Source: Sneathiella glossodoripedis JCM 23214 (GTDB taxonomy: Bacteria > Pseudomonadota > Alphaproteobacteria > Sneathiellales > Sneathiellaceae). From it: DNA of 64,000 nt. How positions within the stretch are numbered: position 1 is the stretch's first letter; every line of letters begins with the position of its first letter. Of this stretch, positions 21,071 to 40,945 are shown in pieces. The stretch is taken from assembly GCF_000616095.1 (NCBI RefSeq), contig NZ_BAMS01000004.1:124001-188000 (forward strand). Direction: 5' to 3'. Below the pieces are notes generated by a model. The model was not told where the DNA came from and ran no database searches. It saw only the letters and a list, made by a program, of their open reading frames with translations. The position numbers were made by a program, and so were the translations under genes.

Positions 21071-21658
21071 GTGACTATCTTTCTCAACCGTTTGAGCCTT
21101 TTTTCCGTATTTTTTGGGCTGATGGCAGCCATTTCAACTGTTTCGTTTCAGGCAATTGATGCGCATGCGCAAGAGCAGATCCCGGTCGCAACTGCAGCTG
21201 TTGTTGATGTGAACAAGGTTCTCTTGTCTTCAACGCATTGGAAACAGGCGGATAGCACTATGAAGGCTCAAATTCAGAATGTGAACGATCAGATAGAGTT
21301 GCGGAACAATGCGCTCAAAGAAAAAGCTGATGAGCTGAAACGCCAGCAGGCTATATTGGCTCCTAATGTATTCCAGCAAAAAGCAGCGCAATTACAGCAG
21401 GAACAACGCGATCTGCAACGTGAAATGCAGGTAACGAACGCAAAACTGAATGAAACGCTGCAAAGTGTCAGGGGCCGCCTTAAAAATATTATTGTGGAAA
21501 TTTCGGCGTCGGTTGCGCGTGACAAAGGGATGAATATCGGATTTGATCGCCCAAATGTTATCTTTTTCAAAGACGCAATTGATATCACTGACGCGGTACT
21601 TGAGCGTTTTAATGCTGCTAAAATTGAAATTTCAAGCGAGCCTGCAAAGCAGAATTAA
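21071..21658 (+). CDS. OmpH/Skp-family periplasmic chaperone
   Basis: 195 residues from GTG at 21071, preceded by GGAG. A signal peptide ends near AHAQ, followed by a beta segment (VAVVDVNKVL type: ATAAVVDVNKVLLSS) and a long coiled coil (about residues 60-150) rich in Gln, Lys and Glu, then a C-terminal strand. This is the Skp/OmpH layout, in which trimers form tentacles that hold unfolded outer-membrane proteins. It is not beside bamA or lpx genes, where the main skp usually sits, so it may be a paralogue. Its stop overlaps that of the convergent add gene. Confidence 0.85.
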   Translation: MTIFLNRLSLFSVFFGLMAAISTVSFQAIDAHAQEQIPVATAAVVDVNKVLLSSTHWKQADSTMKAQIQNVNDQIELRNNALKEKADELKRQQAILAPNVFQQKAAQLQQEQRDLQREMQVTNAKLNETLQSVRGRLKNIIVEISASVARDKGMNIGFDRPNVIFFKDAIDITDAVLERFNAAKIEISSEPAKQN

Positions 21659-22620
21659 AGCTGCGCCAATAACTGCTCTTTCAAACCTTCATCACAGAAT
21701 GCTGCTTCTATTGCGTTCTGTGTAATCTGCTGCATTGTGGCTTCATTCCATCCGAAAGCCTTTGCTGTCTGCTCATATTCACGGCCAACCGAAGTTGCAA
21801 AAAACGGTGGGTCGTCGGAACTGATGGTGACCCTGCACCCTTTTTCCATTAATCGATTGATTGGGTGTGATTTGTAGTTTTCATAAAGGCCGGTTGCAAT
21901 ATTGCTGCCCGGACAAAGTTCGAGTGTAATGGCTTTTTCCGCGAGTTCTTCAACCAGCTGATCGTCTTCGATAGCGCGGACACCGTGCCCTAAGCGAACA
22001 ACAGGTAAATGTTCAAGCGTTGCCCGTATACTATCTGGTCCGCCAAATTCACCTGCATGGTTGGTCGTGGGGAGCCCAGCTTCATGTACAATATTAAAGG
22101 CGGGTGCAAAATCAGCAGGGTGATGCATGGCCTCATCCCCTCCCATTCCAAAGCCAACAACATATGGATGGGGATTTTGGGCAACCTGCCGGGCAACCTG
22201 GGTTGCACTCGAGGCTCCTAAATGGCGCACGCAGGTCACAATAATTCTGCATTCTATTCCAAAGTCACGGCGGGCATCATCAATCCCCGCGCTGATGCCT
22301 TCCAAATGATCCACATAGGACATACCAGCGGCAGCGGCATGATCTGGCGATGAAAATGTTTCAACGTAAATTACATCTTCCTCTGCGCACCGCCTGAGAT
22401 AGTCATAAGTTACAGCTCTGTAGTCATCGATTGACTTGATGGCAGCTGCAGCCTTGTCATAACATTTTAAAAAATCCCAAAAATCATCCCAGCGAAACTC
22501 CCCGTCTGAGGCAAAAGTCGTGGGATCCAGCTCTGCACCATTTCGCCCTGCCAATTCGCGGACCAACGCCGGGGTTGCAGTTCCTTCCAGATGCACATGT
22601 AGCTCTGCTTTTTTGACCAT
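21655..22620 (-). CDS. add: Adenosine deaminase
   Basis: 321 residues. Zn ligands and catalytic residues are visible: HVHLEG near the N-terminus, the NHAGE block (TTNHAGEFGG) with the third His and catalytic Glu, RLGHGVRA, and the SSDDPPFF aspartates. It converts adenosine or deoxyadenosine to inosine or deoxyinosine, feeding the purine nucleoside phosphorylase of the same operon. It is the last gene of the ten-gene nucleoside operon, 4 bp after deoB. The length is near that of the family, and the closing EEAFCDEGLK-type helix is present (EAAFCDEGLKEQL). Confidence 0.95.
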   Translation of the reverse strand: MVKKAELHVHLEGTATPALVRELAGRNGAELDPTTFASDGEFRWDDFWDFLKCYDKAAAAIKSIDDYRAVTYDYLRRCAEEDVIYVETFSSPDHAAAAGMSYVDHLEGISAGIDDARRDFGIECRIIVTCVRHLGASSATQVARQVAQNPHPYVVGFGMGGDEAMHHPADFAPAFNIVHEAGLPTTNHAGEFGGPDSIRATLEHLPVVRLGHGVRAIEDDQLVEELAEKAITLELCPGSNIATGLYENYKSHPINRLMEKGCRVTISSDDPPFFATSVGREYEQTAKAFGWNEATMQQITQNAIEAAFCDEGLKEQLLAQL

Positions 22621-22624
22621 GCCT

Positions 22625-23829
22625 CTACCTTAGAAATGAAGTTCCATGTTTGAGTGGTGAAATTTCAAGATGAGCGGCAATCGTTTGCCCGATATCTGCA
22701 AAGGTATCTCTCTCGCCAATGTTGCCGGGCGTTATGTTAGGTGAATAGCCTATCACTGGTACAACTTCGCGAGTATGATCGCTTCCCGGCCATGTGGGAT
22801 CACATCCATGATCTGCACTCAGAATAAGCAAATCATCGTCTTTCATAGCTCCCATGATTTCCGGCAACCGGGCATCAAACTCTTCCAGTGCAGCTGCATA
22901 TCCACCTACATCACGTCGATGACCATAAGACTGATCGAAATCCACCAGATTGGTAAAGATTAAGCACCGTCTTCAGCCCTTTTCATTGCGTTAAGCGTTT
23001 CATCCACTAACGCCATGTTTCCAGCAGCTTTAACAATCTCACCCGTACCTTGATGAGCGAAGATATCGCCAATTTTGCCAACTGATATAACCTGCCGCTT
23101 TTCTTCCTGCAGCTTTACGAGCAGTGTGGGCTCCGATGGCGGGACTGCAAGATCTTTTCGGTTGCTGGTTCGGCTATAGTTACCATCTGCGCCAACAAAG
23201 GGGCGGGCAATCACGCGGCCGATTTCCAAGTCGTCGACCAGTTCGCGGGCAACAGCGCAGAGGTCATAAAGCCTTTCCAACCCAAAGCTTTCCTCATGGG
23301 CAGCGATCTGTAATACACTATCGGCTGATGTATAGAAAATGGGTTTGCCACGCGCTACATGCTCATCACCATGCAGGGCAATAATCTCAGTTCCCGACGC
23401 ATGACAGTTTCCCAAGATGCCGGGAAGGTCACAACGCTCAATCAGTGTGTCTGTCAGCTCTTTTGGAAAGCAGGGAACTGTTTTGGGAAAATATCCCCAG
23501 TCAAACATTACTGGGTAGCCCGCCATTTCCCAGTGACCTGACGGTGTATCTTTGCCTCGGCTTTTTTCCTGTGCATAGCCATATAAGCCCGTAAATTCCC
23601 CGCCCGGGACTAGTCCCGTTGTGTTTTGCTTGTGAGCTGCGAGCAGGCCTAGACGTTCCATATTGGGAATTCGAAGTGGGCCTTCTCGATTGTTGGTGTT
23701 TGCTTTTCCTTGACTGGCCGCTTCTAAAATATGGCCAAGCGTGTCAGCACCTACGTCGCCAAATTTATCTGCATCCTTTGCAGCACCAAGGCCAAAACTG
23801 TCCAATACAATCAGGATTGCACGGCTCAT
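22625..23829 (-). CDS. deoB: Phosphopentomutase DeoB (frameshifted)
   Basis: Interconverts (deoxy)ribose-1-phosphate and -5-phosphate, linking the phosphorylases to DeoC. Alkaline-phosphatase-superfamily metal motifs are present: [20 protein letters not shown] at the N-terminus, DTPSGHWE in the middle, and [11 protein letters not shown] plus [18 protein letters not shown] near the C-terminus. The frame breaks near 22967: one missing base after KRAEDG. Restored, it reads on as [12 protein letters not shown] and gives about 401 residues, the normal length. Start ATG overlaps the deoA stop by 4 bases. Confidence 0.93.
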
Positions 23830-25163
23830 ACATCCTCCAGTGTTAATTTGCGCCGGACAATGGGACGGCTCGCTGGGGCTTCATCCACGATTGCGATAGC
23901 TGAGAGTATCCGTTTCTGTACAAGATTTGCCGTCTCCTCGTCCCGGGCATAAATTGTTGCGACAGGATTTCGTGGTCCAACCTTGTCGCCAATTCCTTTG
24001 ATATGGGATAGGCCAACACTGTAATCAATATTATCACTGGCCTTGTGCCTGCCACCACCTAAATCCATTACCGCAACACCCATAGCACGTGTATCCATCG
24101 CCCCGATATATCCGCGCCGCGGGGCTATGACATCTTTTCGGACCGGGGCAAGCGGCAGGTATTTATCCGGATTACTCATCAGATCTGAAGGGCCACCTAA
24201 AGCGACAACCATCTGTGCAAACCGTTCCGCCGCTGTGCCACTGTTCAGGGCGCCCATAACGGCCATGGGCGCAGTCGTCGTGTCGGCAATTCCGGAAATG
24301 ATCAACATTTCAGCACAAAGCTCTGTCACGACTTTTAAAAGTCTTGGCTCTTGATAATTTCCCAGCAGGAAATCGATGGTTTCCCGGACTTCGATGGCGT
24401 TGCCAGCAGTTGATCCAAGGACCTGATTCATGTCTGTCAGTAGTGCGGTTGTCGGCATACCGGCGCCATTTGCGACACTCACAATACTTTTTGCCAGTTC
24501 CTCCGCCTCTTCATAATCCTGTTTGAAAGCACCTGTCCCGTATTTGACATCCATAACCAGTGCATCAAGACCCGCGGATAACTTCTTGGACAGAATTGAG
24601 GCTGTTATCAATGCAATGCTTTCCACAGTGGCAGTGACGTCCCTTGTGGCATAAAAACGTTTGTCGGCGGGTGCAAGATCAGCCGTTTGACCAATGATGG
24701 CGCATCCAACAGATTTCACCACTTTGCGCAGTAATTCTGGATCGGGTGCTGTATTGTATCCGGGCACGCTGTCCAGTTTGTCCAATGTTCCTCCCGTATG
24801 GCCAAGTCCCCGGCCTGAGATCATCGGCACCGCTCCGCCGCAGGCAGCAACAATGGGGGCGAGCATTAAGCTGACCTTGTCGCCAACGCCGCCTGTTGAA
24901 TGTTTATCAACAACAGGACCCTTAAGGTCCGCCTTCGACCAATCCATGACTTCGCCTGAATGAACCATGGCCTTGGTCAGCCATACCCGTTCCTGCATTG
25001 GCATATCACGAAAGAATACCGCCATTGCAAAGGCGGCAATCTGACCTTCGCTAATGCTGTTATCCGTAATGCCTTTGACCATGAAATTAATCTCTGCTTC
25101 GGTCAATGGCTGGCCATCCCGCTTTTTACGGATGATTTCCTGGGGGAAGAAATGCTCAGTCAT
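23826..25163 (-). CDS. deoA: Thymidine phosphorylase DeoA
   Basis: 445 residues, normal for the bacterial enzyme. It cleaves thymidine (and deoxyuridine) with phosphate to the base and deoxyribose-1-phosphate. The family signature [13 protein letters not shown] is near residue 85, with [17 protein letters not shown] following, and the C-terminal [11 protein letters not shown] block. Six bases separate its start from the aldehyde dehydrogenase stop, and its end overlaps deoB, so it is in the middle of the operon. Confidence 0.97.
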
Positions 25164-25168
25164 CAGTT

Positions 25169-27547
25169 TTATTCACCGTACGGAATCCAGATATTTTTTA
25201 CCTGGGTTGCATGTCTTAGAAACTCACGGCCCTCTGCCTGTTTGGCATCGAACCAGTCATAGGCCCTGCCATGGTTTGTCCAGGTTCGTTTCATATTTCC
25301 AGCGGAGGCACGCTCGACAAGTTCACTTCCTGCTTCAGGGCCAAAATACCATACGGACTTTACGTCATCATGTTCGGCCAGTGTTTTGGCAAGCTCGTCT
25401 CTGATCCCGGTAACAATGTTGAAGGCTCCAGCAGGCACGTCTGACGTTTCCAGAACCTGATAGAAATCTGTCGCTGATAAAGGATGCGTTGGTGATGGAA
25501 CAAGCACGATCCGGTTCCCCATGGCAAGTGCAGGCGCTGCCAGTGAAATCATTGATAATAGCGGGTTTTCATCAGGGCACAGAATACCGATTGTCCCGAT
25601 AGCTTCCTTCATTGCAAGAGTGACCCCTCGCATGGGAGGGGAGTGAACCTGACTTTCATATTTGTCAGCCCATGCACCATAGGAAAACAGGCGGGAGATG
25701 GAGAGTTTCACTTCCTCGGCGGCTTTCGCCTTGCTGACGCCAGTGGTCTCAATCAGCCGTGCAGTAAATTCATCCTCTCTGGCTTCCAGATTTTCGGCAA
25801 TATAGTATAGAACTTGTGCTCGACCATGAGCGGAGTTCTGTGTCCACGCCAAATTTTTACGGGCAGCTTCTACTGCGTTACGAATATCCTTGCGATTGCC
25901 GTGACCAACTTCTGCAATTTTTTCACCTTTGGCATTCAAGACTGGCAGGCTGTATCCACTATCTGGACGAGCTTGCTTGCCCCCAATATAGAGTTTTGCC
26001 GTCCGATCGAGTGCCGTTTTGAGTCCGGTATTTTCTTTTGCTTTAACAGGTTTTGCATCTTTGTATTTGGCAAGTTTGGAAATAAATTTGGGCCTCAATA
26101 CCTCATACATTCCTTCAAGGCCGCCTTCACGGCCATACCCGGATTCCCTGTTTCCGCCAAATCCGCAAGCAGCGTCAAACTGATTGGTGGAATTGATCCA
26201 GACAACACCACAGTCAAGTTTGGGAGCGACATCCAGAGCCAAATTTATATTTTCACTCCATACAGAAGCTGCGAGACCATACCGGGTGTTGTTGGCGATT
26301 TGAACAGCTTCACCTGGCGTGCGGAATGTCATGGTGACAACAACGGGGCCAAAAATTTCTTCCTGTGCGATGGTGCAGGCTGGCTGTACATCTGTAAACA
26401 GCGTTGGTGGATAGAAACTGCCATTCTTCGGTTTGGCCCAGTCCGGTTGCCAAAGATTGGCACCTTCTTCTTGCCCTGTTTTAACCAGCGCTTCAATTCG
26501 ATCCAGCTGCATTGGGGAGACAATTGCGCCCATATCAACGCATTTATCCAGCGGATCACCTAATCGAAGTTTTTCCATTCGGGCTTTTAAGCGACTGATA
26601 AACCTGTCATGGATCCCTTCTTGCAGCAAGAGTCGAGATCCTGCACAGCAGACCTGCCCCTGATTAAACCAGATGGCATCAACAACCCCTTCAATGGCAC
26701 TGTCAATATCGGCATCATCAAACACGATAAAAGGCGATTTACCGCCAAGCTCCAGTGTGAGATGTTTCCCTGATCCCGCTGTGATTTCCCGAATTCTGCG
26801 ACCCACTCCCGTAGATCCGGTAAAGGCTATTTTATCAATGTCACTATGTTTTACGATCAATTCTCCCGTGCTGCCATCACCTGTGACGATATTGATCACA
26901 CCATCGGGTAACCCCGCGTCGCGGCAGATTTCAGCAAAGCATAAGGCGCTTAGTGACGTATATTCTGCTGGTTTCAATACAACAGTATTTCCGGCGGCAA
27001 TTGCAGGAGCGATTTTCCAGGCCAGCATTAACATTGGAAAATTCCACGGAATAACCTGACCAATGACACCCATTGGTTCGAAATCGGTAAATTCAGTTTC
27101 CTGAAGCTGCGCCCAACCGGCATGGTGATAGAAATGCCGTGCGACCAACGGAATATCTATGTCTCTGGTCTCGCGGACAGATTTGCCATTATCAAGCGTC
27201 TCAAGCACAGCCAGTAATCTGGAATTTCGTTGGACGGCACGGGCAAGCGCATAGAGATGGCGAGCCCGCTGATGTCCTGTAAGTGATCCCCAGCTTTTCT
27301 GCGCTTTGCGTGCAGCTATTACGGCCTTGTCCACATCTTGGGCAGATCCTTTAGCAAGAGTTGCCAGTTTTTCGCCTGTTGCAGGGTTTATGGTATCAAA
27401 AAAACCGTCGCTTGCCGGGGCGTTCCATTTTCCGTCAATGAAGTGAGCTAAGTGACCTTCATGAGCAGCAATCCAATTGAGTGCCTCCGCTTTGCTTTCC
27501 GGAGCCGGGCCATAGTCCATAGTGTCAAAAATCTCTGCAATGTTCAT
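25169..27547 (-). CDS. Two-domain aldehyde dehydrogenase, ALDH16-like
   Basis: 792 residues from the ATG at 27547, which follows AAGGAG; a longer frame to 27679 runs back into deoC and is rejected. The first ALDH domain (about 30-510) has the catalytic Glu in LELGGKSP and Cys in [10 protein letters not shown] second, shorter ALDH-like domain (about 540-792) keeps the fold ([28 protein letters not shown]) but has no catalytic Cys motif. This matches the ALDH16 class. Lying between deoC and deoA, it probably oxidises the acetaldehyde released by DeoC to acetate. That assignment rests on context. Confidence 0.88.
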
Positions 27548-27558
27548 TGGTTGACTCC

Positions 27559-28544
27559 TTAAGCCATCGGGTGGCGGAAATCGGCTGAGTAGCGTCCGGT
27601 CACAAAATGTTCCAGCTGTCGTTCGATATCTCCAAGCAGGCTGGAGGCACCGATACGGAACAAATCCGGCTGCAGCCAATCATTGCCCAATTCCTCTTTC
27701 ATCAGAATCTGATACCCCAATATGTCTTTGGCGGCGCTGATACCGCCCGCAGGTTTATAACCGATTTTGTACCCGGTCATTTCTTCATAGGCGCGAATGG
27801 CTCTGATCATAACAAGGCTCACCGGCAGGGTTGCATTTACACTTTCCTTGCCAGTGGAAGTCTTGATGAAATCAGCTCCAGCCATCATGGCGATCATGCT
27901 CGCCTTCGCCACATTGCGAAGTGTAACCAGCTCACCAGTTCCCAAAATGGCTTTCAGATGAGCTTCCCCGCAGGCTTCCCGAAATGCCTTTACCTCGTCA
28001 TACAGGGCCTGCCAGTTCCCGCTAAGCACATGCCCGCGAGTAATCACAATATCAATTTCCTTGGCGCCAGCCGCGACCGAGGCTTCAATTTCTTTGACCC
28101 TAAGTTCAAAAGGGCTAAGACCAGCAGGAAATCCGGTGGATACAGCAGCAACGGGTATATTTGTCCCCTCCAGTGCTTCAACAGCGGTTTCTACCATTGT
28201 GTGATAGACACAAACGGCACCTGTGCTCAAATGCCGATCGGACATTCCGAGTGCTTCAAGAATATCCGGGCGTACCGGTTGGCGGGCTTTGGCGCATAAC
28301 CGTTTGACACGGCCCGGCGTATCATCCCGCTCAGTGTCGTCAGATCGATACAGGAGATCGCTTTTAAGAGCCAGGCAGCCTGATACTCCTTTTTCACAGT
28401 ACGTCTTCCGCCCAGTGTTTTTGCCCTGCGCTCCACAGCACTTAAATTGACATGGGTATCTTCAACAGCATCCAGTGAAAATTTCAGACCCGGGTTTCGG
28501 GCATGGGCATGGCTGTCGGGGGTCAGCTTGCTAATTGTCGCCAT
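27559..28544 (-). CDS. deoC: Deoxyribose-phosphate aldolase DeoC (frameshifted)
   Basis: Splits deoxyribose-5-phosphate into glyceraldehyde-3-phosphate and acetaldehyde through a Schiff base. The active-site Lys is in DFIKTSTGK, with the second Lys in GYKPAGGI. The N-terminal extension before CIDLTTLSG is typical of the longer eukaryote-like DeoC. The frame breaks near 28327, in a run of three G (read on the minus strand): one missing base after TLSG. Restored, it continues DDTPGRVKRLCAKAR and gives about 328 residues. The start overlaps the PNP stop by 14 bases. Confidence 0.93.
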
Positions 28545-29397
28545 CGGCTTCCTCTTTCATGTGGGCTTTAAGAAGCTCACGTTTCAAGGTTTCCAGAAAA
28601 ATAATGACCAGCTTTTCAAGGTCATTGGCAGCCAGTTTTGCACATTCCAGTGTTTGCTCATGGCTAAGAGCTGTTTTGCTTAAGCCTGCAACCAGATTGG
28701 TGATATTTGAAATGGCTGCAACCCTCATCCCGCAGTGGCGGGCGACGAGAACCTCAGGTGTGGTTGACATGCCAACCGCATCGGCGCCCAGTGTTTTAAA
28801 GGCTCGGATTTCTGCCGGAGTTTCAAAATTAGGGCCGGGATAATGCAAGTATACACCTTCGCTCAGATCAATGCTGAGCTCTTTTGCCACTGCTTTCAAA
28901 TGTTCTCGCAAAATCGGATCATAGGCATCTTCCATTGAGAAAAACCTTGGACCAAATCGCTCATCATTTTCACCAATTAGCGGATTGCGTGATGTGAAAT
29001 TGATATGATCACTTATCAGCATCAAGCGGCCGGGGCCGACCTCTTCGTGAAAACTTCCTGCTGCGTTGGTTACGAGCAGTATTTCCACGCCAAGCAATTT
29101 CATGACCCGGACCGGAACCGCCAGATCTTGGGGGTCGACACCCTCATACAGATGAATACGGCCTTGCATACAAATAACGGGCATTCCGCCAAGGCGCCCC
29201 AAAACCAGTTTTCCTTGATGCCCCTCGACCGAAGAGCGGGGAAAGTCTGGAATATCCGTAAAATTCAGACTGGCAACTGCGTCGATTTTGTCCGCAAGAC
29301 CACCAAGGCCGGAACCCAGTACGATGCCGACACGGGGCATGAAACCGGGAGCTTGCTCTTTTATGAAATCGGCTGCTTTTTGAGGATCTAGAGGCAT
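28531..29397 (-). CDS. punA: Purine nucleoside phosphorylase (trimeric type)
   Basis: 288 residues of the PNP/MTAP family, the high-molecular-weight-independent trimeric class (PunA/XapA). Hallmarks: GIVLGSGLGGL, the EGHQGKLVLGRLGG block with the phosphate His, GRIHLYEG, LLVTNAAGS and the base-binding GPNFETPAEIRAFK. It cleaves (deoxy)inosine and (deoxy)guanosine with phosphate, producing sugar-1-phosphate for DeoB. It follows the transporter genes with a 1-base overlap, and takes product from adenosine deaminase in the same operon. Confidence 0.95.
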   Translation of the reverse strand: MPLDPQKAADFIKEQAPGFMPRVGIVLGSGLGGLADKIDAVASLNFTDIPDFPRSSVEGHQGKLVLGRLGGMPVICMQGRIHLYEGVDPQDLAVPVRVMKLLGVEILLVTNAAGSFHEEVGPGRLMLISDHINFTSRNPLIGENDERFGPRFFSMEDAYDPILREHLKAVAKELSIDLSEGVYLHYPGPNFETPAEIRAFKTLGADAVGMSTTPEVLVARHCGMRVAAISNITNLVAGLSKTALSHEQTLECAKLAANDLEKLVIIFLETLKRELLKAHMKEEADGDN

Positions 29398-30367
29398 TAC
29401 TTTTCCTTGATATAGGGTTGGCCGATCGCTTTTGGAGGCATAGCCCGCCCAACAAACCCAGCCAGCAAAATAACAGTCAGAATATAAGGCAGCGCCTGAA
29501 TGAACTGCACTGGGATCACACCGACGACAGGTAATTCAACACCCTGAAGTCTCGCCTGTACCGCGTCGGTAAAGGCAAAGAGCAAACAGGCCAGCAAAGT
29601 TGGGACTGGCTTCCATTTTCCGAATATGAGGCAGCAAGTGCCAGATACCCTTTACCTGCAGTCATGTCGCGAATGAAACCGGCACCGTGAGCGGTCGAAA
29701 GGTATGTTCCAGCAATGCCGCATAGAAAACCTGTGACAGCCAAAGCTTTATAGCGGAGAATTTCAACTGAAATACCCGCAGTATCAACAGCATGTGGGTT
29801 TTCACCGACTGCTCGCACACGTAGCCCGAAACGGGTTCTGAAAAGGACATAAGCCACAATTGGTACCGCAGCGGCGGCCATATAAACGATTATATTGTGA
29901 CCAGAAATAAGCTCTGCATAAATATAGCCGATAACGGGGATATTTCCGATTGCATCCGCAAAAGGCAGGGTAATGGAGGAAAAGCGCTCATCTCCATTCA
30001 GCGCCGGTGTACGCCCACCAAGTTTGAACCAGGCAAATCCCAGCGTTGGGGTAAGTCCAGCAACCACAATATTAATCGCCATTCCAGACACAACCTGATT
30101 TCCATTATGTGTAACGCAGGCATATGCATGCAATGACGACAGGGCGAGGGAGGCGGCAATTCCCGCCATCAGTCCCAGCCAGGCTGAACCGGTTGTGGTC
30201 GCAACAGCCGCCGCCGCAAACGCAGCGCCCAGCATTTTTCCTTCAAGTCCAATATCAACGACCCCTGCACGCTCTGAAAACATGCCGGCAAGTGCTGCCA
30301 GCACAAGTGGTGTCGCTACTCGAAATGTTGCATCAAGCAAGAGGATTGTGACTTCAAAAATTTCCAT
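29397..30367 (-). CDS. Nucleoside ABC transporter permease, second subunit (frameshifted)
   Basis: BPD_transp_2 family permease like NupQ/YufQ and the ribose/BMP transporter permeases. About eight to nine membrane spans; the family EAA-like loop region GRTPALNGDERFSS and the RAVGENPHAVDTAGI segment are present. The frame breaks near 29630, where one base is missing after KGYLALAA; restored, LIFGKWKPVPT follows and the protein reaches about 323 residues. It pairs with the permease just upstream, 3 bp apart, to form the channel. Confidence 0.9.
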
Positions 30368-30370
30368 CAG

Positions 30371-31492
30371 TTATACCTCCGCCGTTGAAAGAGACTGTCG
30401 CTTCTTGAAAAAGCCTTCAATTTTTGGGCGGAACATATTCTCCAGAGCACCGGAGAACAGAATAATAAGTCCTTGAATGACAATAACCATTTCCTTGTTG
30501 ATATTGCTCATTTCGAAGGAAAGTTCTGTACCTCCTTGATAGATAGCTCCAAATAGCAATGCGGCCATAAAAATACCAATTGGGTGGTTTCTTCCCATAA
30601 GAGCGACCGCAATACCAACAAATCCATATCCACCGGTGAAGTCCATCAAGACACGGTGATGCACACCCAGCAGTTCATTCACTGCAACGAACCCAGCAAG
30701 GCCGCCTGAGATTATCATTGCAAGAATTATGTTTTTTGAGGGAGAGATTCCCGCATATCTGGCTGCAGATTCGTTTTGCCCAACAACGCGAATTTCATAC
30801 CCCCAACGTGTATGCCAGACGAAGTAATAAAATACGCCACTTAACAAAAGGGCGAGTATGAAACTAAAATTAAGGGGGCTGTCCGCCATTCCGGTAAATT
30901 CTGGCGCGCGGGCAAGCCAGGTGTGATCAGAAAATTCTCTCGTCTCGGGAGAGCCGCCAGCACTGGGGTTAATCATCACTTCAACCAGCAAATAGGTCAT
31001 GACGGAAAAAGCAATGAAATTAAACATGATCGTGGTAATCACGATATGACTGCCCCGTTTCGCCTGCAGATATGCAGGCACATATGCCCATCCTGCGCCA
31101 AATACTGCGCCTAGCATGATTGCGAGCGGGATTACGGCCCAAAAGGGCAGAAAATCAAAGTAAAGCGCAGCTATTCCAACGCCAAGGCCACCTATGAAAG
31201 CCTGACCTTCCGCTCCAATATTGAACAGCCCGCAATGAAAGGCGATGGCAACCGCAAGCCCGGTGAAGATGAAATTTGTTGTGTAGTATAACGTATAACC
31301 AACGGCTTCGGGGTAGCCGAAAGCTCCGTAAACAAGAACTTCAAGTGCTTTAATCGGATCATCACCAACGATTAAAATTACCACCCCGGAAATCAGGAAG
31401 GCGGCAACAAGGTTTATCAGGGGAATAAGCCCCAGACTTACCCATGCAGGCACCTTTGACGGGGCACCGAATTTTGATTTTGTCTCAGACAT
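30371..31492 (-). CDS. Nucleoside ABC transporter permease, first subunit
   Basis: 373 residues with about nine membrane spans, BPD_transp_2 family, like NupP/YufP. The FHCGLFNIGAEGQ motif and RVVGQNESAARYAGI segment are typical of BMP-type nucleoside transporters. The start overlaps the ATPase stop by 1 base. The N-terminus before the first span carries basic residues (SKFGAPSKVP), as expected for a cytoplasmic end. Together with the ATPase and BMP protein it imports nucleosides; specificity is inferred from the downstream catabolic genes. Confidence 0.93.
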   Translation of the reverse strand: MSETKSKFGAPSKVPAWVSLGLIPLINLVAAFLISGVVILIVGDDPIKALEVLVYGAFGYPEAVGYTLYYTTNFIFTGLAVAIAFHCGLFNIGAEGQAFIGGLGVGIAALYFDFLPFWAVIPLAIMLGAVFGAGWAYVPAYLQAKRGSHIVITTIMFNFIAFSVMTYLLVEVMINPSAGGSPETREFSDHTWLARAPEFTGMADSPLNFSFILALLLSGVFYYFVWHTRWGYEIRVVGQNESAARYAGISPSKNIILAMIISGGLAGFVAVNELLGVHHRVLMDFTGGYGFVGIAVALMGRNHPIGIFMAALLFGAIYQGGTELSFEMSNINKEMVIVIQGLIILFSGALENMFRPKIEGFFKKRQSLSTAEV

Positions 31493-33069
31493 TAAGATAC
31501 TGCCTCACCCTCAGGATCCGATACATGCAACTCCTGATCGGAAATGCCTGCCATCATCAGACCAAGCCTTTGCTCAGTTGCTTCACTGGCATCCAGCTCA
31601 CCAACGATCGCACCATCGAACATGACGGCAATCCGGTCAGCCAACGACATTACTTCATCAATCTCTACAGAAACGACCAAAATTGCTTTGCCCTGATCGC
31701 GCATGTGAATGAGCTGTTTGTGAATGAACTCAATAGCACCAATGTCAACACCACGGGTTGGTTGTCCAACCAAAAGCACATCCGGGTCTTGTTCCATTTC
31801 TCGCGCTAGTACAAGTTTCTGCTGGTTTCCACCGGAAAAACCTGATGCTTTCAATGTGGCATCTGGCGGGCGAACATCGAACTTTTCGATATAGGTTTCA
31901 CAAGCCGACACCATTTTGGTGCGATCCAGCGTAGCACCTTTGTTAAACATGGGCAGATCGTGATAGCCAAGAGCCGTATTTTCATTGGCGCTAAAACTCA
32001 GGACCAGTCCTGCTTTATGGCGATCTTCGGGAACATGCCCCAGACCAATTTTACGAAGATCACGGGCGTTGAATTTGGGGTTCTTGACCAATTCTTCCCC
32101 TTTATATCGAATGCTCCCTGACGTGGGTGAAATTATACCGCCCAAGACTTCAAGCAATTCGGACTGCCCATTTCCCGATACGCCAGCGATACCGAGTATC
32201 TCTCCTGCACGTAAGGTGAGGCCAATATTTTTCAGGCGAGCAACCCCATCCTCATCAATATAATTGAGGCCTTCAATGGTCATTAAATCTGCGCCAGGTG
32301 TCGCTTTTTCCTTCTCCACTCTAAGAAGGACACTTCTGCCAACCATCAGTTCTGCGAGTTTTTCCCGGTCGGTATCTTTCGTCGCGACATGAGCGACCAT
32401 CTCGCCTCTGCGCATAACGGATACATGATCTGTGATGGCCATTATTTCGCGCAATTTATGGGTAATCAGGATCACCGTCTTACCCTGTTCACGCAACGTA
32501 TTTAAAATTCGAAACAGGTGGTCCGCTTCCTGCGGTGTCAGAACCCCGGTGGGCTCATCGAGAATAAGTATCTCCGCGCCGCGATACAGGGCTTTTAGAA
32601 TTTCAACCCGCTGGCGAAGTCCAACGGGTAAATCACCGACCAGTGCATCTACATCCACTTCCAGTGTGTATTCCCGCTCCAGCCTTTCAAGTTCAATTCG
32701 GGCTTTTTCAATACCGCCGGCCAAGCGATTCCCGCCTTCAACTCCGAGGATAATATTTTCAAGTACCGTGAAGGTATCCACAAGCATGAAATGCTGATGG
32801 ACCATTCCGATACCGGCTTCGATGGAGGCTTGCGGATTGTCAATGTCACACAAGGCGCCATTCACATAAATTTCGCCTTCATCCGCCTCATAGAAGCCAT
32901 ATACGATACTCATCAACGTGGATTTACCAGCTCCATTTTCGCCGATAATACCGTGAATTGTGCCGCGGCCCACGGACAGGGAAATATCCCTGTTTGCGTG
33001 GACCGCGCCAAACCACTTGTTGACTCGGCGCAATTCAAGCGCCGGGGCATTAGTCGTCATATCAGTCAA
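31492..33069 (-). CDS. Nucleoside ABC transporter ATP-binding protein, duplicated domain
   Basis: 525 residues with two nucleotide-binding domains, the layout of RbsA/NupO. The first domain has Walker A GENGAGKSTLM, Q-loop, and Walker B EILILDEPTGVLTPQEA with ITHK. The second has GVSGNGQSELL in place of Walker A, a known degenerate form of this class, and SGGNQQKLVLAREMEQDPDVLLVGQPTRGVD. It energises the BMP-type importer. It follows the substrate-binding gene by 5 bp and overlaps the permease gene by 1 base. Confidence 0.95.
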   Translation of the reverse strand: MTDMTTNAPALELRRVNKWFGAVHANRDISLSVGRGTIHGIIGENGAGKSTLMSIVYGFYEADEGEIYVNGALCDIDNPQASIEAGIGMVHQHFMLVDTFTVLENIILGVEGGNRLAGGIEKARIELERLEREYTLEVDVDALVGDLPVGLRQRVEILKALYRGAEILILDEPTGVLTPQEADHLFRILNTLREQGKTVILITHKLREIMAITDHVSVMRRGEMVAHVATKDTDREKLAELMVGRSVLLRVEKEKATPGADLMTIEGLNYIDEDGVARLKNIGLTLRAGEILGIAGVSGNGQSELLEVLGGIISPTSGSIRYKGEELVKNPKFNARDLRKIGLGHVPEDRHKAGLVLSFSANENTALGYHDLPMFNKGATLDRTKMVSACETYIEKFDVRPPDATLKASGFSGGNQQKLVLAREMEQDPDVLLVGQPTRGVDIGAIEFIHKQLIHMRDQGKAILVVSVEIDEVMSLADRIAVMFDGAIVGELDASEATEQRLGLMMAGISDQELHVSDPEGEAVS

Positions 33070-33074
33070 TCAAA

Positions 33075-34055
33075 TTACTTGTATTCAGTGACTTTGATTT
33101 TACCGGAAATAATATCTGCTTTGGCAGCTTCCAGTTTTTCAATCATTTCAGCAGTCAGCAGACCTTTGTTATGCTCATCGACAGCATATCCAACACCACC
33201 TTCTTTCAGGCCAAGGACTTTAATGCCTGGTTTCCAAGTGCCGTTTTTAGCTGATGTAAAAGCGTCTTCTACAGCGACATCAACCCGTTTGAGCATAGAT
33301 GTCAGCATAGTGCCTGGCTGTAAATGGTTCTGGTTGCTATCAACACCAATTGCAAGCTTTCCGCTGTCCTTTGCTGCTTGGTAAACACCCATTCCTGTAC
33401 CGCCAGCGGCTGCATAGACAACATCTGCACCGCGGTCAAACTGGCTTTTTGCAAGCTCACCACCTTTTGTTGGATCATTCCAGGCAGCAGGTGTTGTTCC
33501 AGTCATGTTTTCAAAAACTTCAGCATTAGGATTGGCAAATTTTGCACCTTCCTTGTAACCCAGTGCAAATTTGCGGATGAGGGGAATATCCATTCCGCCC
33601 ACAAATCCGACTTTACCTGTTTTGGATGCCATGGCTGCGGCCATTCCAACAAGGAATGAGCCTTCATGTTCTTTAAAGACTACAGACTGAACATTTGGCA
33701 GATCCACAACCATATCAATGATGGTGAATTTTGTGTCCGGATTTGCTTTTGCAGCTTTTTCAACCGCAGCTGCCTGTGCAAATCCCATGGCAACCACAAT
33801 ATCTGCTCCTTTGCGGGCCATGCGTTTTGTCGCCTGCTCGCGCTGGGATACTTGAGTTACTTCAAACTCCATATATTCAATGCCAGTCTTTTTCTTGAAA
33901 GCCTCGGCTCCGTTATAGCCAGCTTCGTTAAAAGACTTGTCAAACTTGCCGCCCATATCAAAAATGATGGCTGGTTTGAAATCGTCAGCCTTGGCGATGC
34001 CAGTGACGGCGACTACAGCTGCCGCAATGGCAGTCAGCTTAAGTTGTTTGAACAT
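33075..34055 (-). CDS. BMP-family nucleoside-binding protein of ABC transporter
   Basis: About 326 residues from ATG at 34055, preceded by GGGAGAAG; a longer frame from 34139 lacks a ribosome site. A signal peptide ends near GIAKA. The mature protein has the BMP (basic membrane protein, PnrA-like) fold: IIFDMGGKFDKSFNEAGYNGAEAF at the N-terminus and the VYAAAGGTGMGVYQAAK and GVDSNQNHL segments that line the nucleoside site. No lipobox, so it is a free periplasmic protein. It is the first gene of the ten-gene operon and follows a RutR-type operator. Confidence 0.94.
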   Translation of the reverse strand: MFKQLKLTAIAAAVVAVTGIAKADDFKPAIIFDMGGKFDKSFNEAGYNGAEAFKKKTGIEYMEFEVTQVSQREQATKRMARKGADIVVAMGFAQAAAVEKAAKANPDTKFTIIDMVVDLPNVQSVVFKEHEGSFLVGMAAAMASKTGKVGFVGGMDIPLIRKFALGYKEGAKFANPNAEVFENMTGTTPAAWNDPTKGGELAKSQFDRGADVVYAAAGGTGMGVYQAAKDSGKLAIGVDSNQNHLQPGTMLTSMLKRVDVAVEDAFTSAKNGTWKPGIKVLGLKEGGVGYAVDEHNKGLLTAEMIEKLEAAKADIISGKIKVTEYK

Positions 34056-34123
34056 TCTTGACTTCTCCCTGTCATGTTTCGAACGCTTACAGATAATTCC
34101 CTCTAACAGAACTAACGCAAATA

Positions 34124-34139
34124 CTGACCAAATGGTCAA
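34124..34139 (-). promoter_or_regulatory. RutR-type operator upstream of the nucleoside operon
   Basis: On the minus strand the site reads TTGACCATTTGGTCAG, matching the RutR consensus TTGACCA-N2-TGGTCAA at 13 of 14 fixed positions; TGACCA and TGGTCA are exact complements. RutR is a TetR-family regulator that senses uracil and thymine. The site is about 70-85 bp upstream of the BMP gene start. The TTGACC at its 5' end could also serve as a -35 hexamer, so a bound repressor would block the promoter. Confidence 0.7.
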
Positions 34140-34280
34140 GTCTTGTTACAAGGGAGCCTAAAGTATAAAACCCTGTTGCAGAATTATACAGTTTTTTGCA
34201 CGACACGTTTGTGTACCGACTGTATTTATGCTGCTAATTTCGCTAAAATTGGAAAATTCGGGAATGAGAAGAGGTGTTTA

Positions 34281-36190: not shown

Positions 36191-36340
36191 GATCAACACC
36201 TTTTGTTTTTGTTTTCTTGCATCTTAATCCAGTGGCGGGTCTTTGTATCCAATAATTTCGCTTTCGGGCGTAATGAAATCTTGCCCGTATGGTCAGGCTG
36301 GCTATATTCTGTGCCAAACTCAAACGGCAGGTAGTTACAC

Positions 36341-39065: not shown

Positions 39066-39592
39066 ATGACTACTACCACCCCTGTAGAAGAAGACGGCGT
39101 AAAGCGCCGCGATTTTCTATATGTCGCCGCAGGCGGCGTTGGTGCCGTAGGCACTGCAATGGCAATCTGGCCGTTTGTGGACCAGATGAATCCCTCTGCC
39201 GATGTTTTGGCTCTGTCCTCAACTGAAGTGGATCTGAGCGCCATCGACGAAGGGTCTGAAATTACCGCTGTTTGGCAGGGTAAACCGGTTTTTATTCGGC
39301 ACCGTACGGAAGCCGAGATTGCGGATGCTGTAAATGTTGATGTAACAGCGCTTCCCGATCCTCAGGCAGACGAAGATCGTGCTGAACGGCCTGAATGGCT
39401 GATCATGATCGGTGTTTGTACCCATCTTGGCTGTGTTCCGCTCAAAGAAGCGGGTGATTTTAACGGCTGGTTCTGTCCGTGCCACGGATCCCATTATGAT
39501 ACGTCAGGTCGTATCCGTAAGGTCCTGCACCGACCAATCTGGCTGTACCGCCATATGTTTTCCTTGACGAAAACACTGTGAAGATCGGCTAA
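39066..39592 (+). CDS. petA: Cytochrome bc1 Rieske iron-sulphur subunit (frameshifted)
   Basis: About 175 residues. [12 protein letters not shown] at the N-terminus is a Tat-type signal-anchor. The 2Fe-2S ligands are in CTHLGC and CPCHGSHYD. The frame breaks near 39521 in a G run after GRIRK; adding one G gives [23 protein letters not shown], the canonical C-terminus, stopping at 39592. As written the C-terminus is altered. It is the first gene of petABC and passes electrons from quinol to cytochrome c1. Confidence 0.95.
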
Positions 39593-39605
39593 GGGGGATA
39601 TAGAT

Positions 39606-40945
39606 ATGTCGTTTGAACCGAAAAGTCCGGTTGTAAAATGGGTTGATAGCAGACTGCCGATCATCGGTATGATGCATCACGCTCTATATGACTACCCGAC
39701 TCCAAAAAATCTGAGCTACTGGTGGACATTTGGCTCACTTGCCGGATTTATGCTGGTTGTGCAGATCGTAACAGGTATCGTCCTGTCCATGCATTACACA
39801 CCGCATGTGGATTTGGCGTTTAACAGTGTCGAGCATATCATGCGCGATGTGAACTATGGCTGGCTAATTCGCTACATGCATGCGAACGGTGCTCAATGTT
39901 CTTTATTGTCGTGTATTTGCATATTTTCCGGGGCCTTTACTATGGCTCCTACAAGGCACCACGTGAATTGTTGTGGTGGCTGGGTTTGGTCATCTTCCTT
40001 CTGATGATGGCAACAGCCTTTATGGGCTATGTGCTTCCTTGGGGCCAGATGAGCTTCTGGGGTGCGACAGTGATTACCAACCTGTTCGGTGCAATTCCGG
40101 TTGTTGGTGATCCGATCGTAACATGGCTGTGGGGTGGTTTCTCTGTTGATAACCCAACACTGAACCGTTTCTTCAGCTTGCATTACCTGCTGCCATTTGT
40201 CATCGTTGGCGTCGTGATCCTGCATATCTGGGCGCTGCATACAAATGGGTCCAACAACCCAACAGGTATCGAAATCAAAGACAAACAGGACAGCATTCCG
40301 TTCCATCCTTATTACACAATCAAGGATCTGTTCGGTTTGGGCGTGTTCCTGATTTTCTTCTCAGCATTCCTGTTCTATGCACCAAATTATCTGGGGCATC
40401 CGGACAACTACATTCCGGCCAATCCTTTGGTCACACCTGCACATATTGTTCCTGAATGGTACTTCCTGCCTTTCTACGCAATCTTGCGGGCTGTTCCGGA
40501 CAAGCTGGGCGGAGTTCTGTTGATGTTCGGTGCGATCGCTGTTCTCTTTGCGTTGCCATGGCTTGATAAGAGCCGGGTTCGCTCCGCACGCTATCGCCCA
40601 ACCTTCAAGCAGTTATTCTGGATTTTCGTTCTTGTTTGTATTGGTTTGACGTATTTTGGTGCGCAAAGTACAGACGGGTGGGTGATTAAATACGTTGAGA
40701 TGGTACCATCCTTGGATAAAAATGGGGAGCAGATCGTCAAAGACGGTAAAGTCGTAATGGAAGAAAGTATCATTGGCTTGTCAAATGTATGGGCTAGTAG
40801 AATTTTGACCTTCTATTACTTCTTCCATCTTCTAATCCTGCTGCCACTGGTGGGACTGTTTGAGAAACACAAACCGTTACCGTCGAGTATTTCTGAAGCG
40901 GTTCTGGATAAAAAATCTGGCGCAGAGGAGGCAGGCAATGCTTAA
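39606..40945 (+). CDS. petB: Cytochrome b of the bc1 complex (frameshifted)
   Basis: About 447 residues with eight membrane spans. Haem-ligand His pairs lie in the second and fourth spans (MHYTPHVD precedes the first; [16 protein letters not shown] and [21 protein letters not shown]). The [13 protein letters not shown] motif marks the Qo site. The frame breaks near 39893: one missing base between HANGA and [14 protein letters not shown]. Long loop of about 40 residues between the last two spans is typical of alphaproteobacteria. Ends overlapping petC by 8 bases. Confidence 0.96.

Follow-up and report, generated by a model that had tools for sequence, protein, structure and literature searches.

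A predicted operator of a RutR-like regulator ahead of a ten-gene nucleoside operon in Sneathiella glossodoripedis

Which signal turns on the nucleoside operon of Sneathiella glossodoripedis? The stretch of DNA analysed here (64,000 nucleotides, called the window below) carries a palindrome just upstream of ten genes for nucleoside uptake and breakdown, and a preliminary description had read it as a RutR site. The sequences of the site and of related genomes suggest that a TetR-family repressor encoded elsewhere in the genome, RutR-like and responsive to uracil, uses this site as its operator; we put the probability of this at roughly 85%. The site and the promoter elements predicted around it are the following.

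34124..34139, minus strand: predicted operator of the RutR-like regulator, reading TTGACCATTTGGTCAG toward the operon, with one mismatch to TTGACCANNTGGTCAA, an identical 16-mer at the regulator's locus, and conservation before bmpA in genomes of the same genus
34134..34139, minus strand: likely -35 hexamer TTGACC, also the left half-site, which the 5 regulator-less genomes of the genus all retain
34110..34115, minus strand: likely -10 hexamer TTAGTT, 18 nt past the -35, where an alignment of 15 promoters shows conserved columns downstream of the site

The plus strand letters at window positions 34124-34139 are CTGACCAAATGGTCAA. Compared with the 16-bp RutR consensus, reportedly TTGACCANNTGGTCAA and said to go back to Shimada in 2007, the site has a mismatch at one of the 14 specified positions, and the palindrome is real. 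It was the sole match with at most one mismatch within the 64-kb window; at up to three mismatches, 11 matches were found there against 3.95 expected. About 0.6 sites as good as this one are expected by chance in the whole genome, and the near-perfect match claimed at the outset is borne out. The start of the site is 84 nt away from the ATG of bmpA. In part of the genus the -10 hexamer has the variant form TTGGAT. A promoter scanner reported neither the -35 at 34134..34139 nor the -10 at 34110..34115.

The genes downstream are read on the minus strand from about 34055 (the bmpA ATG) down to 21655 (the end of add). Their grouping into one operon is supported by gene content and spacing.

33075..34055, minus strand: bmpA, BMP/PnrA-type substrate-binding protein, first gene of the operon (Pfam PF02608, 4.6e-65, the query having one extra leading residue)
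31492..33069, minus strand: ABC transporter ATPase (Pfam PF00005)
30371..31492, minus strand: ABC transporter permease 1 (Pfam PF02653)
29516..30367, minus strand: ABC transporter permease 2, its frame broken near the end in the assembly (Pfam PF02653; the remainder would fall in the 118-nt gap to punA)
28531..29397, minus strand: punA, purine-nucleoside phosphorylase (NF006054, 377.5 bits against a cut-off of 218)
27559..28544, minus strand: deoC, deoxyribose-phosphate aldolase, in two frames (second piece over the TIGR00126 cut-off; first piece without a Pfam match, joined by position and by eye)
25169..27547, minus strand: double-length aldehyde dehydrogenase (Pfam PF00171, two stretches)
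23826..25163, minus strand: deoA, thymidine phosphorylase (TIGR02643, 679.1 bits against a cut-off of 570.7)
22625..23829, minus strand: deoB, phosphopentomutase, in two frames (NF003766 over its cut-off; second piece PF01676)
21655..22620, minus strand: add, adenosine deaminase, last gene of the operon (NF006848, 437.4 bits against a cut-off of 426)

The operon thus consists of a four-gene BMP-type ABC importer and of PunA, DeoC, an aldehyde dehydrogenase, DeoA, DeoB and Add, with gaps of at most 11 nt or overlaps between neighbours, except for the 118 nt after permease 2. Gene content, spacing and the 84 nt to the bmpA ATG all confirm that the site lies just ahead of a ten-gene nucleoside operon. 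Best matches of bmpA include a Sneathiellales bacterium (86%) and Sneathiella species (76-79%). The double-length aldehyde dehydrogenase (25169-27547) plausibly handles the acetaldehyde released by DeoC. Frameshifts break permease 2, deoC, deoB and, by eye, the Rieske/cytochrome b genes (window 29440-29516, 28227-28245, 22945-22960 and 39581-40004, respectively); these broken frames are perhaps assembly errors.

The preliminary description had named DeoA and uridine breakdown as the sources of the bases that RutR senses. DeoA is confirmed as a thymidine phosphorylase, its TIGR02643 score being over the cut-off. Uridine breakdown, on the other hand, had to be given up as an activity of the operon, because none of its ten genes is a uridine phosphorylase or a cytidine deaminase. 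A nucleoside hydrolase gene is present elsewhere (C10:9687), and no site with at most two mismatches was found near it among the matches listed (50 of 54, the other four falling at the end of contig C12).

A search of the genome for a RutR homologue returned a single TetR_C_3 protein (contig C11, at about 423 kb; PF08362, E-value 3.5e-50, 171 bits against a cut-off of 25). Its closest solved relatives are the E. coli RutR structures (1.6e-41), the next protein following at 1.7e-10. PMC10891134 describes the RutR box as a palindrome of about 16 bp, and gives W77, Y97, W167, Q171 and Q179 as the uracil contacts of E. coli RutR. All five are identical in the Sneathiella protein, and they are kept in 44 of 46 aligned rows, the exceptions being the second copy of genome G024 and a weak outlier from G032. 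The protein nevertheless scores below the NCBIfam cut-offs for RutR (186.5 of 368 bits for TIGR03613, 160.3 of 230 bits for NF011584), and in the tree of the 46 rows it falls in a clade of 38 (support 100/99) that excludes E. coli RutR and seven others. Three genomes, G045, G214 and G278, carry one copy on each side of the tree (both G214 rows being long branches), which makes the two lineages paralogues. By this tree, the regulator and E. coli RutR are not orthologues but members of paralogous sister lineages, and we call the former RutR-like. The proposal of RutR as the regulator is therefore upheld for a single RutR-type protein with its uracil pocket kept, and abandoned for an identity of the E. 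coli type.

The regulator gene has as neighbours genes for a PreT-like protein (scoring under the cut-offs of its models), PreA (a dihydropyrimidine dehydrogenase subunit), an amidase of the hydantoinase/carbamoylase family and a transporter, with a D-hydantoinase gene about 9 kb further on. No rutA-G genes were found among the genes adjoining it. A scan of the genome for further sites yielded six with at most one mismatch, against about 0.62 expected in 3.63 Mb at the base composition of the window (about 5e-5 per 300-nt upstream region), and four of these six lie upstream of pyrimidine or nucleoside genes. The exact core TGACCANNTGGTCA is found 4 times in the genome, compared to 0.2 expected and 0 for the reversed control. 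With up to two mismatches, 54 sites were found compared to 27 for the reversed control, so that most two-mismatch sites are background and only the best ones carry weight. Three sites outside the window are of interest here.

C11:423911: 16-mer identical to that of the window (TTGACCATTTGGTCAG), between the regulator gene and the PreT-like/PreA/amidase operon
C11:434357: site with at most one mismatch, between a D-hydantoinase/dihydropyrimidinase gene and a nitrilase-family amidohydrolase gene
C12:1096874 (L019, 10875-10890): RutR-type site with at most one mismatch, before a second BMP-type transporter operon that includes a cytosine deaminase piece

In genomes G011, G022 and G023, exact-core sites are likewise placed, by coordinates, 147-270 nt before a second BMP-type gene. 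The left half TTGACC could be usable as a -35 hexamer at the rutR-preT, bmpA and second-BMP sites. Three other sites of the genome, C11:643139 and C12:856731 (one mismatch each) and C10:270091 (two mismatches, exact core), fall within frames predicted to be coding and were taken as chance occurrences. A three-mismatch site of the window, at 36281-36296 before upp, was considered as a second operator; it is missing before upp in the other congeners checked, apart from G001, G002 and G012, in which upp shares the bmpA site directly, and was also put down to chance.

An operator match with at most two mismatches was present at 20 of the 25 regulator loci examined (out of 43), in both lineages, where about 0.01 per locus is expected. 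Judging from these matches, both RutR lineages share the operator. In G024, a second RutR-like protein is encoded directly upstream of bmpA (G024:C110; L104 1300-1938, L064 726-1364). This copy differs at two of the five uracil contacts (C97, P179), and its own gene is preceded by two operators with two mismatches each. Among the bmpA loci, with flanks of 0.2-3 kb, a RutR-like gene beside bmpA was found solely in this genome.

Conservation before bmpA was followed in 24 genomes of the genus (G000-G023), 22 of which have bmpA (not G009 and G013), 17 of these having the regulator as well (in pieces in G016). The preliminary description looked to relatives with the same operon for the site, and there it is: in 14 of the 17 regulator-bearing genomes, this one included, a site with at most two mismatches stands 84-97 nt ahead of the ATG of bmpA (no mismatch in 3 genomes, one in 6 and two in 5). 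G007 has three mismatches, and in G017 and G021 no site can be recognised before bmpA, although the regulator is present. Five genomes have bmpA and lack the regulator: G003, G008, G015, G019 and G006 (66% complete). Only one of them, G015, has a site with two mismatches (1/5, versus 14/17 with the regulator); mismatches amount to three in G008, four in G006 and G019, and five in G003 at the homologous place. For G003 and G019, these numbers were counted by eye at the homologous places, the automatic best matches (3 and 4 mismatches, more than 360 nt upstream) being elsewhere. The Fisher p value for site versus regulator within the genus, 0.02, overstates the evidence, because the regulator-less genomes are few and mostly belong to one branch. 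In the bmpA tree, G003, G008 and G019 are found together with G017 and G021, and G015 is beside them. No TetR_C_3 match is present in G003, G008, G013, G015 and G019 (94-99% complete), suggesting that the regulator was lost in these genomes. In G021, which has the regulator, and in Sneathiella sedimenti (L212), another palindrome, TTAGACTAAAAGGTCTAA, is found in the operator's place before bmpA.

Could the conserved sequence be a promoter and nothing else, TTGACC being its -35 and the palindrome incidental, with no regulator acting? That TTGACC is kept in 5 of 5 same-genus genomes without the regulator agrees with it. The right half, however, has no promoter role, and its columns carry 1.74 bits each over 15 regulator-bearing promoters, compared to 0.53 for the flanks. 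Its GGTCA is intact in 13 of 17 genomes with the regulator versus 1 of 5 without, and the identical 16-mer recurs at the regulator's locus, so that a promoter alone appears very improbable. The retention of TTGACC in genomes without the regulator, together with damage to the right half in 4 of the 5, is what one would expect if selection still acted on the -35 hexamer and no longer on the operator.

Alternatively, the site might be read by a different transcription factor with a similar motif. G015 keeps its two-mismatch site without the regulator, and the TTAGACTAAAAGGTCTAA palindrome in place in G021 and S. sedimenti hints that this promoter can change hands. Against such a factor, the motif is found at 20 of the 25 regulator loci, and the exact cores in the regulator-less G003, G013, G015 and G019 include one inside the purL coding sequence. 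We consider another reader of the site very improbable. The exact core in question, TGACCATATGGTCA, had been examined as a sign of such a reader in these four genomes, and was discarded because it lies inside a long frame reading, by eye, as purL. This purL-like frame, of 733-735 codons, holds the core at L047, L050, L039, L040, L031, L048 and L044, from genomes with and without the regulator. Further exact cores are present in G013 and G015.

The operator predicted for the RutR-like protein might also have the divergent gene, and not the nucleoside operon, as its main target. In many congeners a TATACTTT stretch (window positions 34159-34166, approximate coordinates) recurs, by eye, 20-25 nt upstream of the site; in the divergent direction it is AAAGTATA, and it may serve as a -10 on that side. 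The neighbour varies, however, with upp directly sharing the bmpA site in G001, G002 and G012 and other genes there in G000 and G005, whereas the distance from the site to bmpA is nearly fixed. A main role in divergent expression is hardly credible, and control of the nucleoside operon by the RutR-like regulator remains the preferred reading.

Among 289 genomes of the class, a close bmpA homologue was found in 67 and a TetR_C_3 match in 52, 47 of them over the cut-off. The scan took in 67 of 77 bmpA places, four same-genus ones being counted apart and six excluded (second hits in G130, G038, G267 and G252, fragments in G214 and G213), and G144, whose TetR_C_3 match is weak (1.6e-6), was counted as lacking the regulator. 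Outside the genus, a site with at most two mismatches was found in 5 (G232, G063, G278, G241 and G045) of the 30 bmpA upstream regions whose genomes have a strong regulator, compared to 0 of the 37 others; such a site was not found in the remaining 25 of the 30. Exactly three mismatches were counted in one of the 30 regions and in two of the 37. The Fisher p value for at most two mismatches is 0.015, and as the regions are not independent it overstates the evidence.

In a set of titled bmpA loci (79 of 80 scanned, L213 starting inside the gene), which may overlap the class genomes, 11 had a site with at most two mismatches and 16 with at most three, the reversed control giving 0. Sneathiella chungangensis, Oceanibacterium hippocampi and Denitrobaculum tricleocarpae are among the site-bearing ones. 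No site with at most three mismatches was found in S. litorea (L205), S. sedimenti (L212) and Sneathiella HT1-7 (L216). Presence of TetR_C_3 was tested for 30 chosen loci, namely six site-bearing ones judged to be outside Sneathiella and 24 others, and a match was found in 6 of the 6 site-bearing and 17 of the 24 site-less genomes. By these counts, the link between site and regulator recurs in several lineages, and is not universal. The sequences CTGTCCAAAGGGTCAG, found before bmpA in G060 and G284, and CTGTCCGAAGGGTCAG, found in G187, were considered as a lineage variant; the regulator loci of these three genomes have no match with at most two mismatches, and imperfect TTGACC-type sites are present in two of the three.

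For a RutR-type protein with an operator overlapping the promoter, the natural reading is a repressor sitting on the -35 and spacer and lifted by uracil or thymine. That the protein binds here, which ligand it senses and in which direction it acts are inferred from the RutR family. When uracil and thymine are scarce, the dimer would occupy the operator and block RNA polymerase, the likely -35 hexamer being the operator's left half. As bases accumulate, be it thymine, or uracil from deoxyuridine, both by way of DeoA, or bases from outside, the repressor would leave the operator. Nucleoside use is thus probably turned on, if the family analogy holds, when free pyrimidine bases accumulate. Nucleoside import, breakdown of thymidine and purine nucleosides, use of deoxyribose-phosphate and base degradation would then form one regulon and be co-induced, and the second BMP-type transporter operon, with cytosine deaminase, which carries a similar site, may belong to it.

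A broader proposal, to which we give even odds, is that in Sneathiella and part of its relatives the RutR sister clade acts as the master switch for nucleoside use, coupling a free pyrimidine base to nucleoside import and breakdown (purine nucleosides included) and to base degradation by means of -35-based operators, the diverged copy of G024 being perhaps a sensor for another nucleoside product. If this is true, scavenging of both purine and pyrimidine nucleosides in an alphaproteobacterial group would be induced by free pyrimidine bases, and proteins filed as RutR in this group are predicted to comprise two paralogous lineages with one common operator. The predicted control of the nucleoside operon by a RutR-like protein adds, with good support, a further case to a kind of regulation already known. 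Among the papers that a literature search listed, none was found to state that RutR controls alphaproteobacterial nucleoside operons, and we make no claim of priority.

In E. coli, DeoR and CytR control deoC, deoA, deoB and the purine-nucleoside phosphorylase gene, the signals being deoxyribose-5-phosphate and cytidine, whereas the signal predicted in Sneathiella is a free pyrimidine base. The preliminary description opposed the latter signal to DeoR/CytR as a pair. As for CytR this agrees with the genome, in which its model NF008269 found no match, but the wording may not hold for DeoR, three strong DeoR-family (DeoRC) proteins being present. For pyrimidine catabolism, Leyn et al. 2016 (PMC5343134) predicted RutR regulons in 68 genomes of proteobacteria from 13 groups, with a mean of 10.9 target genes per genome, and the present case is similar in having a RutR-like protein as the predicted regulator of pyrimidine catabolism. 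With E. coli RutR itself (PDB 3LOC, 4JYK, 4X1E, 6Z1B), the Sneathiella regulator shares the TetR_C_3 domain, the five uracil contacts and a TTGACC-type palindrome of about 16 bp. Unlike E. coli RutR, it belongs to the paralogous lineage, adjoins genes of the reductive pathway with no rutA-G beside it, and has predicted targets that include a nucleoside operon.
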